Below, in pieces: positions 1 through 3,600 of a DNA stretch of 22,861 nt (positions are counted from its first letter, which is position 1; every line of letters starts with the position of its first letter). The notes beneath the pieces were generated by a model. The model ran no database searches. It was not told the DNA's origin and saw nothing but the letters and a program-made list of their open reading frames with translations. Both the position numbers and the translations under genes were made by a program. The DNA is from a virus: positions 1 through 22,861 of IMG/VR virus record IMGVR_UViG_3300030117_000278; one strand, written 5' to 3'.

Positions 1-467
1 GGTCTATCTTTGTACTGACAAATTAGATCAGCTGAACCTGCCCAACGATCATCATAGGCTAAACTTACTTCAGTTCCGTAAACTTCTGATAAATCTTGTA
101 AATTATCTACAATGGTATGTGCCATCATTCTTGGTAAGTGTCCGTCTTTTCTTAAATTTAAATAACCTACTCCATTCATATATTGTTCTAAAACATAGTG
201 CATTTCTGTTCCGCGAGTAGCAGCTTGGTTCGTGATTCGTGCAGCCTCTTTATGACCCACACGATTTCTCCAAGACGCTAAAGCTTGTTTTTTTTCTTCT
301 GATTGAGTGGCGGACAAAATAGCAGTAACACTAGGCACTTTTTTCTCGTCCACATTGTAGGTTCGTGGCCCGTCATTGTCGTTACGAGAGTATTGTTTAT
401 ATTGGTATGAATTATTTTTTTTAAATCCAGTTATTGTAAAGCTACTCTGGTTTTTTATTAGCTTCAT
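1..467 (-). CDS. PD-(D/E)XK exonuclease, N-terminal part (cut by left edge)
   Basis: About 155 residues are visible and the reading frame is still open at base 1, so the C-terminus lies outside the window. The sequence resembles the RecB/Cas4-like PD-(D/E)XK nucleases of marine podophages, which process phage or host DNA during replication and recombination. Visible marks are VPSVTAILSAT (residues 44-54), the helix motif RGTEMH (85-90) followed by a conserved Glu (LEQY), GTEVSL (131-136), and AGSADLI (143-149), whose Asp147 would be the first metal-binding acid. The E-x-K half of the active site is beyond the edge. I chose the ATG at 467 because AAGGTG lies five bases upstream. It overlaps the sugar dehydrogenase gene by 26 bases, and no later ATG precedes the conserved VPSVT segment. 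The family call is by motif only; the substrate is unknown. Confidence 0.75.
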   Translation of the reverse strand, partial: MKLIKNQSSFTITGFKKNNSYQYKQYSRNDNDGPRTYNVDEKKVPSVTAILSATQSEEKKQALASWRNRVGHKEAARITNQAATRGTEMHYVLEQYMNGVGYLNLRKDGHLPRMMAHTIVDNLQDLSEVYGTEVSLAYDDRWAGSADLICQYKDR

Positions 468-1206
468 CACGCACCTTGTTATTATATTCTATTACTTCTT
501 TTATTATGCTTAAATTTAACCCGTAATACAAAGCAGAGTATGTTATTGCTTCAGCATCTTTAGGTAAACAATGTCCATCAAAACCACGTTCTTTTGTTAC
601 CTGACTGTGGCTTTGTCCTATTCTACGATCTAAAACTATACCCTTTCTCACATTATTAAAATCAATACCAGACACATTACAAAAATCATACACTTGATTG
701 AAAAATGCAACTTTTGTGGCTAGGTAAGCGTTTTTAAAATATTTAATTGCTATAAGTTCTTTTGGATCGGCTTCAATTATTTGTGGACAGCTAGGAAAAA
801 CTTTCTTAAATAAATTTACCCAGAAAGTTGTTTCTTTGCCGCCTATCATTATATATTCTTGTTGACGAAGATCTTCTAAAGCTTTTTCAGCTCTCAAAAA
901 TTCTGGAGAAAAACAAATGTTTTTATCAAATCTTGATTGTATGTAATTCCAACCTTCTAAAGATATGGTGCTTTTGATTAAAATAGGTACATCAGGACAA
1001 TCTTGTAGTACTTCTTTAACATGTATTATATTACATGCGCCTTCTATACCGCTTGGTGTAGGCACGCATACAATAATAGCATCGACATTTTGACTAATTT
1101 TTCTGTCATAATGTTTTGGATCTATTATCTCTGTCTCGTGATAGTTTTGTAAAATGGCAGCATAGGCTCTTCCTACGAAACCATAACCAGCAATGGCTAT
1201 TCTCAT
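442..1206 (-). CDS. UDP-glucose/GDP-mannose 6-dehydrogenase family, short phage form
   Basis: This is an NAD-dependent nucleotide-sugar dehydrogenase of 254 residues. Enzymes of this family oxidise the C6 hydroxyl of UDP-glucose, GDP-mannose or similar sugars to a uronic acid. The Rossmann motif GYGFVG is at residues 7-12, CVPTP at 47-51, SPEFLRA at 100-106, and the Lys/Asn helix IKYFKNAYLATK at 154-165. The catalytic motif GHCLPKD is at 211-217, with Cys213, Lys216 and Asp217, so the active site looks intact. Cellular members are usually near 400 residues. Here the NAD-binding and central domains are present but the C-terminal UDP-binding domain is missing. The gene starts in a TAATG junction with the coiled-coil gene upstream and overlaps the exonuclease gene at its end. 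It may supply a sugar precursor for the two glycosyltransferases at 12050-13751. Exact substrate cannot be told from sequence. Confidence 0.85.
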   Translation of the reverse strand: MRIAIAGYGFVGRAYAAILQNYHETEIIDPKHYDRKISQNVDAIIVCVPTPSGIEGACNIIHVKEVLQDCPDVPILIKSTISLEGWNYIQSRFDKNICFSPEFLRAEKALEDLRQQEYIMIGGKETTFWVNLFKKVFPSCPQIIEADPKELIAIKYFKNAYLATKVAFFNQVYDFCNVSGIDFNNVRKGIVLDRRIGQSHSQVTKERGFDGHCLPKDAEAITYSALYYGLNLSIIKEVIEYNNKVRDEANKKPE

Positions 1207-1559
1207 TATTGTCCTAGTGGATTATCGTCCTTAAGTATTTCGTAAACTTTAGCTAATTCTCTTTCCATCCAACCAGCTAGTTTATCTTCCATATCTTTCA
1301 TTTCTGCATCTAATTTTTCAATACCTTCGTACAATTCTGTGGTAGATTTGTTATTGAACTGAACTCGTTCCTCAACTGCAACCAACCTTTCCTGTAACTG
1401 AGAAGTATCTGTTGCCACAAAATTTTTAACGGCTGCTTCGGTATGTTCCACTCTCGTAGCTAAATTGGCGACCCAATAGACTGTTGAACCTATCGGTACT
1501 ATCGCCCCCAAAACTAGACTCAAAAGTAATCCCGATGAGATCGTAAGAGTTTTGTTCAT
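1206..1559 (-). CDS. Small membrane-anchored coiled-coil protein (spanin- or holin-like)
   Basis: This 117-residue protein has one hydrophobic segment at about residues 8-32 (LLLSLVLGAIVPIG...VYWVANLA). A long charged, heptad-like coiled coil follows to the C-terminus (QLQERLVAVEERV, ELYEGIEKLDAEMKDMEDKL). The layout of N-terminal anchor plus periplasmic or cytosolic coil is that of phage inner-membrane spanins, but it is not diagnostic. The start at 1559 is backed by an AGGAG site eight bases upstream, even though this lies inside the preceding gene. The overlap with that gene is 134 bases in a different frame. The stop overlaps the ATG of the dehydrogenase by one base (TAATG). The 75-aa protein at 3373-3600 has the same layout. 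Role in lysis is inference. Confidence 0.7.
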   Translation of the reverse strand: MNKTLTISSGLLLSLVLGAIVPIGSTVYWVANLATRVEHTEAAVKNFVATDTSQLQERLVAVEERVQFNNKSTTELYEGIEKLDAEMKDMEDKLAGWMERELAKVYEILKDDNPLGQ

Positions 1560-2955
1560 AAATCATCTCCTGTTGTATGGACAACGTTTCTGTTATTTTA
1601 ATCGTATCTTGCATAACTTGCAAATATACCGCCGGCAGCAATATTTGACCTAAAGAGTCAACACTAATTACACTAGATTTAGTTTCGCTTTTATTTGTTT
1701 TAGCCACAGTTTTAACTTTTGGCTTAGGTTTTTCGTTTTTAACGGTGGATTTTTTAGAGTCATTTTTCTTTTTAGATTTATCGTTTTTAGATTTACTTTT
1801 TTTGACGACTTTACTTTCATCACTTTTGATTTCGGTTTTGTCACTGTTTGATAGCTCGCTTGTTGCATCGCTTTCACTCTCTGTTGCTGTCTCTTCTGGC
1901 TCATTATTATTCTCCCCGTCGTTTATCTCAGCAAGATCTTCTTCCATATTTATTTCTTTTAATTCTTCAGGCTGCTCTAACTCTATTTCTGCATCAACCT
2001 CAATGTCAACGACTTCAGGAATTTCAATTTCAACTATCTCTTGAATCTCCTCTACCTCATTTATAGAAGTTAAATTTTCGACATTTGGTAAGTCAACACT
2101 TGCAATGGGTGCAACACTAACTTCAATTACAGGCATTTCTATCTCAACAGGCATATCAATAACCACCTCAGGAACAACGACTTGAATTGGTGATATTTCA
2201 AGGGTAGGTTGATCTAAAATAATATCGTTAGTTACTGACATATCTAAACTCAAACCTTCGATAAGAGTTTCTTCAATTACGACAATAGGTTCTATAATAG
2301 CTTCAACTACAGGTTCAACCACTACAGGTTCAACCACTACAGGTTCAACCACTACAGGAGCCACATACTCCTCTATAGTCATAGATAAACTTAAATTATC
2401 AATAATAGGACCCCACCAATTACTAGAATTACCTGTGTCATTACCTGTAATAGTTAAATTTAATGAGGTATCATCTGTGTTAAAATCACCTGTTACATCT
2501 TTAGTAAAAGAATAACTCTCCCATCCATCTTCATAAGGCACAGCTATAGTTTCTGAAAGCACCTCTGCTGTTGATTCAGTTGATAGTGTAATGGTTGATA
2601 CCACTGTGTCATCTGCACCCGCAGTACACCATTGACCTCCTGTATTACCACAACCAATAGAGTCAAAATTCATGTTAATTTCTTTTATTAAATGATTTTC
2701 AGATACACCTGATATGTCCACATCTTGACTAATATTACCACCTTGATATCTAAATCTTACGCTCTTAGACGCAGAACCAGAGTAAGTCATTGGGTCTCTT
2801 TTAACCTTGTTTTGGTTGTTATCTGATAATTCCCAACCACTGGTATCAGTGGTAAAATTTGGGTTATTCAGTAGGTTGTCCGTAGTCGTTGACTCGGCGT
2901 GGCTTACTGATATTGATGCGGATGCCAGGAGCATCCAAAAGATTACCTTCTTCAT
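1426..2955 (-). CDS. Secreted multidomain protein: carbohydrate-binding-like head, PVVVE repeats, Lys/Ser-rich tail
   Basis: I do not recognise this 509-residue protein as a named family. A Sec signal peptide is clear (MKKVIFWMLLASASISVSHA, cleavage after residue 20). Residues about 27-192 look like a jelly-roll carbohydrate-binding module: NLLNNPNF...SGW at the front, GPIIDNLSLSM at the end, and a Cys pair in GCGNTGGQWC. Residues 201-215 are three perfect PVVVE copies, followed by a long Val/Pro/Glu/Ile-rich stretch of beta character. Then come an acidic segment and a Lys/Ser/Asn-rich basic segment (about 375-425). The last 44 residues are encoded in DNA shared with the next gene. The start overlaps the preceding gene by 92 bases and is supported by the signal peptide. 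Export to the periplasm is well supported; function is unknown. Options are an envelope-active lysis accessory, a secreted adhesin, or a superinfection-blocking protein. Confidence 0.75.
   Translation of the reverse strand: MKKVIFWMLLASASISVSHAESTTTDNLLNNPNFTTDTSGWELSDNNQNKVKRDPMTYSGSASKSVRFRYQGGNISQDVDISGVSENHLIKEINMNFDSIGCGNTGGQWCTAGADDTVVSTITLSTESTAEVLSETIAVPYEDGWESYSFTKDVTGDFNTDDTSLNLTITGNDTGNSSNWWGPIIDNLSLSMTIEEYVAPVVVEPVVVEPVVVEPVVEAIIEPIVVIEETLIEGLSLDMSVTNDIILDQPTLEISPIQVVVPEVVIDMPVEIEMPVIEVSVAPIASVDLPNVENLTSINEVEEIQEIVEIEIPEVVDIEVDAEIELEQPEELKEINMEEDLAEINDGENNNEPEETATESESDATSELSNSDKTEIKSDESKVVKKSKSKNDKSKKKNDSKKSTVKNEKPKPKVKTVAKTNKSETKSSVISVDSLGQILLPAVYLQVMQDTIKITETLSIQQEMIYEQNSYDLIGITFESSFGGDSTDRFNSLLGRQFSYESGTYRSSR
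1567..1571 (-). promoter_or_regulatory. Ribosome binding site AGGAG for the coiled-coil gene at 1206-1559
   Basis: On the minus strand AGGAG sits seven to eight bases before the ATG at 1559. It lies inside the coding sequence of the 509-aa secreted protein and fixes the start of the downstream gene, showing that the 134-base overlap is a true out-of-frame gene overlap rather than a misplaced start. Confidence 0.6.
2311..2355 (-). repeat. Three perfect 15-bp tandem repeats encoding PVVVE
   Basis: On the plus strand the unit aggttcaaccactac occurs three times without a mismatch, at 2311, 2326 and 2341, and the start of a fourth copy follows. On the coding strand each copy gives five residues, PVVVE, so changes in copy number would keep the reading frame. 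Degenerate copies flank the array (PVVEAIIEPIV). It is a coding minisatellite likely to vary by strand slippage. Confidence 0.9.
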
Positions 2956-3376
2956 CTAGTTTTACCATCCCTCTTTCGATGTAAAGTTTTTTTGCTTCCT
3001 CTCCTATTTTACCATCAATAGGACACGGACTATTAGAGTCCCACATTGCCTGCCAGACTCGTGGGTCTTGACACAAAATAGCAGTGGCACTTACGCGTAA
3101 TCCAAGTTGAGCCATGGCCCTAGAAAGCTTGATGCGCTCACACGTCTTATCAACGACATGTATACCAGCTGAAGCATTGAATAAACTCGTGCCCAAAGCA
3201 CCCGATCTTACGACCACACACACATCGCTGCCTCCACCTATGGAAACAGATGGCGATATGGCAGATGCTGGTGGTTGATCTTTGTAATAAATATTACTAT
3301 CCGCAGCAAAACTATCTGTAACATATAATAACAACCAAGCTGTAAATAATATTAAAAATGCTGTTGTCCATTTCAC
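2864..3376 (-). CDS. Exported four-cysteine protein of unknown function
   Basis: This protein has 170 residues. A hydrophobic signal peptide or anchor covers residues 1-24 (WTTAFLILFTAWLLLYV...SFA), with likely cleavage before ADS. The mature part holds four cysteines: Cys53 (DVCVVV), Cys79 (KTCERIKLSRAMAQLG), Cys102 (ILCQDPRVWQAM) and Cys118 (SPCPIDGKIG). They could form two disulfides in the periplasm. The CQDPRVW and CPIDGKIGE segments read like a conserved phage family that I have a sense of from marine phages, but I cannot name a function. It starts in a 4-base ATGA overlap with the 75-aa membrane protein and shares its last 92 bases with the 509-aa secreted protein. The context suggests an envelope or lysis role; this is inference. 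Confidence 0.75.
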   Translation of the reverse strand: MKWTTAFLILFTAWLLLYVTDSFAADSNIYYKDQPPASAISPSVSIGGGSDVCVVVRSGALGTSLFNASAGIHVVDKTCERIKLSRAMAQLGLRVSATAILCQDPRVWQAMWDSNSPCPIDGKIGEEAKKLYIERGMVKLDEEGNLLDAPGIRINISKPRRVNDYGQPTE

Positions 3377-3600
3377 TTCATTTTCTCCAGAATAGTATCA
3401 AGTTTATTAGAGTTTTTATTTACTTGATCTTTAATGTATCTAACTTCTACTTCCATTACCTGAACCTTATCTACTTTAGCTTTAATAAGTTCTTGTTCTT
3501 TTTTTAAATCATTTATTGTTGCGGTCGATGTACCCCAAGCTATGCCTATTAAAACAAAAGGTGAAATAATATAAATTATGTTTTTAGCTTCTATCTGCAT
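3373..3600 (-). CDS. Small membrane-anchored coiled-coil protein (holin/spanin-like)
   Basis: This 75-residue protein has one membrane segment at about residues 8-24 (IIYIISPFVLIGIAWGT) and then a coiled coil with heptad spacing of Ile/Leu/Val (DLKKEQELIKAKVDKVQVMEVEVRYIKDQV). Size and layout fit small phage membrane proteins next to ejection genes; in T7 the holin 17.5 and the spanin 18.5 sit just downstream of gp16 and gp17. The start is in a TAATG junction with the 1101-aa gene, and the end overlaps the next gene by four bases. With one membrane segment it would be a class III-type holin or an inner-membrane spanin, but the sequence does not decide. Confidence 0.7.
   Translation of the reverse strand: MQIEAKNIIYIISPFVLIGIAWGTSTATINDLKKEQELIKAKVDKVQVMEVEVRYIKDQVNKNSNKLDTILEKMK

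Follow-up and report, generated by a model that had tools for sequence, protein, structure and literature searches.

What do three consecutive genes do for a virus when each runs deep into the next in another reading frame and all of them appear to encode envelope proteins? The question is raised by the viral record IMGVR_UViG_3300030117_000278, of which positions 1 to 22,861 were analysed (22,861 bases, referred to below as the window); the genes of its late block lie on the minus strand. A reading of this DNA from sequence alone, referred to here as the sequence-only reading, had likened the nest to the phage lysis genes Rz/Rz1 and suggested a novel cassette for envelope disruption or host exclusion.

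The first of the genes, here called CYS (2864..3376, minus strand), starts with GTG and encodes a 170-residue, predicted exported protein with a signal-peptide-like N terminus and a core holding four cysteines (C53, C79, C102 and C118). It is followed by BIG (1426..2955, minus strand; 509 residues), whose product is likewise predicted to be exported and to consist of a head resembling the beta sandwich of carbohydrate-binding modules (CBM), a disordered stretch and a short helical tail, and by CC (1206..1559, minus strand; 117 residues), with an N-terminal anchor, a coiled coil and a C-terminal NPLGQ. Overlap 1 (2864..2955, minus strand; 92 bases) joins the 3′ end of CYS out of frame to the sequence for the signal peptide of BIG; overlap 2 (1426..1559, minus strand; 134 bases) joins, again out of frame, the 3′ end of BIG to the part of CC encoding the transmembrane (TM) segment and the residues next to it. 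An AGGAG Shine-Dalgarno-like site for CC lies inside BIG (1567..1571, minus strand), 7 bases upstream of the start codon ATG at 1559, and is conserved in the clade; the ribosome sites are good for CYS and CC, and weak and distant for BIG. What had been read from the letters is confirmed: the three open reading frames are exact in coordinates, length and strand, both overlaps join different frames, and the four cysteines, the N termini of signal-peptide type and the AGGAG site are present. The statement that most other junctions measure 1-4 bases was worded too loosely; they are mostly short, and the two overlaps cited are by far the largest, but four further junctions overlap by 17 to 38 bases and one, at the edge of the window, by 29 bases.

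Directly upstream of CYS, with a 4-base overlap, lies a gene (3373..3600, minus strand) for a 75-residue, N-terminally anchored coiled-coil protein, which occupies the same place in the related loci L002, L005, L007, L008, L009 and L011 and is a possible partner of the trio. On the other side, a UDP-glucose dehydrogenase-like gene follows CC in the window, where some relatives of the clade have a gene for a protein with two TM segments.

The trio and its proteins

Homologues of CYS were found in 55 viral contigs by single-sequence search and in at least 595 by profile search. Gene order was assessed in the 111 loci whose downstream flank is 2.5 kb or longer; at 75% identity these form 40 clusters. 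The full ordered trio, that is, CYS, BIG and a CC ending in NPL, is present in 104 of the 111, and a downstream reading frame with NP[LMF] at most 8 residues from its end accompanies CYS in 110 (upstream, in 3); CYS, BIG and CC form one unit. Carriers include pelagiphages and roseophages from several unrelated groups. The isolates and named genomes with the trio are HTVC033P (HMO-2011 type), HTVC023P, HTVC202P, HTVC115P, Baldr, Mosig (Kyanoviridae), Votkovvirus AP013540, the roseophages CRP-207 and CRP-810, and two spring-water phages; among pelagiphages the distribution is patchy. The trio-bearing roseophages also have a lipoprotein beside an anchored coiled coil. A cellular origin of CYS was considered and rejected: the 21 matches in genome contigs, from unrelated phyla, are most simply explained as viral DNA that was binned or co-amplified, and since they are confined to metagenome-assembled genomes and one single-cell genome, the family looks exclusively viral. 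No curated family with a function covers CYS, BIG or CC in Pfam, NCBIfam or PHROGs (the last listing unknown function). The cassette, which combines an anchored coiled coil with two proteins that have export signals, is undescribed, as had been supposed; the trio itself, more than the overlaps, is the main result. The published pelagiphage transcriptome concerns HTVC022P and HTVC027P, in neither of which CYS queries had a match, and timing of trio transcripts was not found in the literature.

Signal-peptide-like N termini, scored by a simple rule and not by SignalP, occur in 87 of 102 CYS and 93 of 111 BIG proteins, compared with 73 of 443 other reading frames. As to the cysteines of CYS, 132 proteins have all four, 13 (from one cluster) lack the third and fourth together, and mixed patterns do not occur; this loss as a pair suggests that CYS resides in an oxidising compartment, with C53-C79 and C102-C118 as the predicted disulfides. 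A Foldseek search with the CYS model, which is weak (pLDDT 62), found nothing. Some CYS proteins (L027-L036) end in a hydrophobic tail. Further, CRP-810 encodes, directly after the gene for an anchored coiled coil, a lipoprotein in which part of the CYS domain recurs (hhalign probability 78), which would link the CYS fold to a form anchored in the outer membrane.

For BIG, an AF2 model places a beta sandwich at residues of about 40-197 (pLDDT about 80-90 for the greater part), followed by a disordered acidic P/V/E-rich and K-rich stretch and the short helical tail. The best Foldseek matches of the head in the PDB are CBM61, CBM4, CBM16 and Fbs lectins (E 1e-6 to 1e-4), and viral matches include tail fibres. 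The modelled head has the jelly-roll fold of CBM4/9-like modules and resembles CBM16 and CBM61 as well, whereas Pfam CBM_4_9 reaches at best 15.7-16.8 bits in relatives of BIG, below its cut-off of 25.9; the head is CBM-like and might bind glycans. Across relatives the size of BIG varies from about 250 to 800 residues, the lectin-like head being that of the BIG in the window. CC is predicted to have a single hydrophobic segment near its N terminus and then a likely coiled coil, with the NPL tail at the other end. In the comparison with two-component spanins, the sole sequence family match of the trio is a weak coiled-coil one, phrog_739 (E 0.028).

Constraint and origin of the overlaps

The comparison of the overlaps took in 20-odd homologous loci, the most distant of them at about 40-50% identity. 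Overlap 1 measures 92 or 95 bases in the clade of the window (77 to 110 in its most divergent members), and overlap 2 measures 128, 134 or 137 bases in nearly all complete loci of the clade. Counted solely at codons whose amino acid is unchanged, the synonymous change of CYS is 0.12 within overlap 1 versus 0.46 outside at 10-30% amino acid divergence, and 0.20 versus 0.57 at 30-60%; in BIG it is 0.03 within overlap 2 versus 0.27 outside and, in a second comparison, 0.15 versus 0.40. An independent cluster with an overlap 1 of 65-71 bases gives 0.26 inside and 0.50 outside. When either partner is recoded synonymously, the other frame stays open with a mean probability of 0.06-0.12 per locus, and the start region of CC, caGGAGatgatatATG, is nearly invariant across the clade. 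Codon choice is thus constrained within both overlaps in the clade of the window. At larger divergence, synonymous change in the CC frame of overlap 2 is not suppressed (0.53 versus 0.48), which argues that the C-terminal tail of BIG is weakly constrained there.

The sequence-only reading had made its case dependent on homologues keeping the overlaps, and this holds in part: constraint is evident within the clade, but the overlaps of HTVC033P measure 1 and 8 bases and that of HTVC115P 14 bases (as annotated), Mosig has gaps, and HTVC202P, Baldr and others likewise carry the trio without large overlaps, a substantial overlap 1 being present in about half of the 40 clusters. Because such homologues exist, the overlaps are features of lineages and not part of the function; they are real and constrained, and probably arose by genome compaction, in which an operon whose genes always travel together would have been condensed. 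That they serve a function themselves, such as translational coupling or forced co-inheritance, is rather improbable; the clade keeps both their lengths and the internal ribosome site, and a substantial overlap 1 recurs among clusters, but the trio exists without them, and spanin genes are also reported to switch between overlapped and separated arrangements without a gain in functional efficiency (PMC6139136).

Lysis genes beside the trio

In one locus (L020) the trio is followed by genes for a short coiled coil, a two-TM protein, a small TM protein and an M15 endolysin. Endolysin and holin-like seeds, drawn in part from trio loci so that the neighbourhood counts are not blind, match in 16 of the 40 clusters and not in the other 24. 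The endolysin matches lie 0-1.3 kb from the trio, except for one at 2.6 kb and a second match in HTVC033P at 1.9 kb, and belong to five Pfam families (Peptidase_M15_4, Peptidase_M15_3, Phage_lysozyme, Glyco_hydro_108 and Amidase_2). Often a holin-like gene sits between trio and endolysin; a holin-like gene in any position was found in 13 clusters, in most of them within about 0-0.5 kb of the trio. One neighbour is a PHROG holin (1.3e-24), the remaining holin-like genes being named by position and two-TM layout alone.

Within the clade of the window, the two-TM gene follows about 200 bases after CC in L001, L003, L004, L006, L077 and L079; in the window itself and in L002, L005, L007, L009 and L011, other genes follow, with no holin or endolysin nearby. 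The contig of L002 does have a holin-like gene, far from the trio, and a search for M15 endolysins in 11 contigs of the clade found none. In Baldr and HTVC202P the trio precedes the terminase and the endolysin is far off, as is the GH108 gene of Mosig. The proposed link to envelope disruption therefore finds support in relatives that place the trio beside holin-like and endolysin genes, but not in the arrangement of the window.

A different kind of evidence comes from the gene PurM. In HTVC023P the trio comes next, with one small gene besides, and then an M15 endolysin; in the relatives HTVC027P and 023Pt_psg01 of this phage, PurM is followed by a module of the gp13-gp15 type, in which anchored coiled coils lie on both sides of an exported four-cysteine protein, and in HTVC027P the M15 endolysin comes next. 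Skadi has the same four-cysteine protein as the HTVC027P module, near M15. The module has no BIG, and its four-cysteine protein is not detectably related to CYS; gp14 of HTVC027P was tried as a remote CYS homologue and rejected (hhalign probability 1). Trio and module look interchangeable without being detectably homologous.

A possible step at the outer membrane

A spanin, by definition, requires an outer-membrane lipoprotein. In two-component spanins an inner-membrane subunit (N-in/C-out) with a periplasmic coiled coil meets its partner by the C termini, so that the pair spans the periplasm; unimolecular spanins unite a lipobox and a C-terminal TM segment in one protein. Lacking a lipoprotein, the trio is not a spanin by this definition. 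It resembles Rz/Rz1 in that its predicted envelope proteins are encoded next to holin and endolysin in many relatives, that one of them is a coiled coil with a predicted anchor in the inner membrane, and that its genes are overlapped in some families and separated in others, as in the overlapped class (PMC6139136). It differs in its three genes, in its two Sec-type exported proteins, and in its nesting, where a signal peptide is embedded in the end of the gene before it, and a TM segment in the end of that for a secreted protein, in place of an o-spanin inside an i-spanin. As a claim of family the parallel with Rz/Rz1 had to be given up, since the window encodes no lipoprotein and the nesting is of another kind. 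With unimolecular spanins such as T1 gp11 the trio shares a predicted envelope-spanning role and, in L027-L036, the hydrophobic C-terminal tail of CYS, but no trio protein of the window has a lipobox.

A scan that does recover the lipoproteins of L050, L060 and L067 found no credible lipobox reading frame in the window, in AP013540 (whole), in HTVC033P (50 of 53 kb) or in HTVC023P (50 of 61 kb), so that no o- or u-spanin is seen in the scanned parts of these three phages; HTVC202P and Baldr have one lipoprotein candidate each, away from the trio. A survey of 677 phages found no spanin in 91, 20 of them isolated on marine cyanobacteria, asked how the outer membrane is opened in these, and suggested unknown topologies (PMC6139136); the trio phages in which no lipoprotein was seen join this set.

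The best-placed reading, plausible without being probable, is that the trio forms a trans-envelope complex of the lysis stage which replaces spanins in the step at the outer membrane. CC would be anchored in the inner membrane and extend its coiled coil into the periplasm; BIG would be exported and attach by its lectin-like head to glycan, either of the outer membrane or of the cell surface, its disordered middle spanning the gap and its tail docking on CC; and CYS, a small disulfide-bonded exported domain, would cap or gate the complex. With membrane potential and peptidoglycan already lost to holin and endolysin, this complex would act on the outer membrane and destabilise it, as a lipoprotein-free substitute for spanins. 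A role in lysis is favoured because the trio is an ordered unit with export signals and paired cysteine loss, because it often adjoins holin-like genes and five types of endolysin in relatives, because it and the HTVC027P-type module replace each other at the PurM site, because AP013540, HTVC033P and HTVC023P have no credible lipoprotein in what was scanned, and because the lipoprotein of a roseophage carries part of the CYS domain. Against it stand the loci in which the trio is not beside an endolysin (the window, five loci of its clade, Baldr, HTVC202P and Mosig), the 24 clusters lacking a match in a count that was not blind, the patchy occurrence among pelagiphages, as expected of an accessory function, and the apparent lack of an outer-membrane anchor on any trio protein; further, the roseophage lipoprotein and the anchored coiled coil beside it are possibly a separate spanin pair.

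That same patchiness would suit a module of surface modification or exclusion, in which CC and CYS hold BIG on the outer membrane of the infected cell and its head blocks other phages or alters stickiness. The CBM-like head and the export signals on CYS and BIG are consistent with this, and pelagiphages are known to carry envelope modules, namely curli secretion genes, which like the trio involve exported proteins and are common to unrelated phage groups (PMC9599517). Nevertheless it is unlikely, as the trio lies repeatedly beside holin-like genes and beside endolysins that belong to several unrelated types, and has no type VIII secretion domain; curli secretion itself was rejected, since Pfam scans of the window and relatives detected neither CsgG nor CsgF nor a curlin domain in the trio. 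The closeness of holin-like genes, together with a small exported disulfide protein and anchored coiled-coil partners, might also fit a regulator of lysis, with CYS and an anchored coiled coil acting from the periplasmic side, much as T4 RI does, to sense or block the holin, and with BIG sensing external phage or glycans. This is a distinctly improbable alternative: neither sequence nor fold gave a link to RI, the fold model being weak, and the large third protein is left unexplained. Very improbable is a virion or adsorption component, with BIG read as fibre-like because tail fibres commonly contain CBM-like domains, for while tail fibres are among its viral matches and the trio of the window comes after large structural genes, CYS and BIG have Sec-type signal peptides, CC has a TM anchor, the paired cysteine loss points to an oxidising compartment, and the trio is distant from tail genes in several genomes.

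If the trio does act in lysis as a trans-envelope complex, it may, more tentatively still, represent a third class of outer-membrane disruption, that is, a lipoprotein-free, three-component trans-periplasmic complex found across unrelated marine phage groups. Its components would be, again tentatively, a disulfide-bonded exported cap, a lectin-headed disordered rod and an anchored NPL coiled coil, in phages of SAR11 and other marine bacteria. SAR11 are the most abundant bacteria of the surface ocean. For annotation, the trio offers a signature, namely an exported four-cysteine protein, a large exported protein and a coiled coil with a C-terminal NPL. It is a concrete candidate answer, for SAR11 phages, to the question of how the outer membrane is opened without spanins (PMC6139136); if the proposal is true, phages of the commonest bacteria in the ocean would break the outer membrane by a route that has gone unrecognised.

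Features of the CYS, BIG and CC proteins

In CYS, the exported four-Cys protein, Cys3 and Cys4 are both replaced by alanine in proteins of the L037-L053 cluster; the two residues are lost jointly, as a pair. A small lipoprotein is encoded 5′ of CYS at L067:886-1101 and in the roseophage CRP-810 (L060:3558-3818); the latter protein contains a CYS-like half domain, and its gene is immediately preceded by one for an anchored coiled-coil protein. As to existing annotations, the “transport protein tonB” of MW202481 is BIG, the large exported protein, and the roseophage genes labelled “lysozyme” (L060:5162-5584 and L062:3292-3873) encode the anchored coiled-coil NPL protein.

Genes downstream of CC

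Immediately after CC, the window encodes a UDP-glucose/GDP-mannose dehydrogenase-like phage protein of 254 aa (442-1206), whose gene occupies the slot taken by the holin-like gene in close relatives. Short basic repeat proteins rich in Lys, Gly and Met are encoded 3′ of the holin-like gene at L001:7814-8053, L004:7875-8063 and L006:7910-8095.

Distribution and a second envelope module

CYS loci are also contained in MAGs of unrelated assigned phyla, archaea included (L160-L180); these are probably viral contigs co-binned with cells. Very large viral contigs of 200–300 kb (L119, L140) carry the trio as well.

A second, undescribed envelope module, in which an anchored coiled coil is followed by an exported four-Cys protein and another anchored coiled coil, is present in HTVC027P (gp13-15; L154:6803-8075), in Skadi-1 (L159:4156-5527) and at L155:6767-7979; in HTVC027P and Skadi an M15 endolysin is encoded nearby. 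The trio and this module are apparently swappable for one another.
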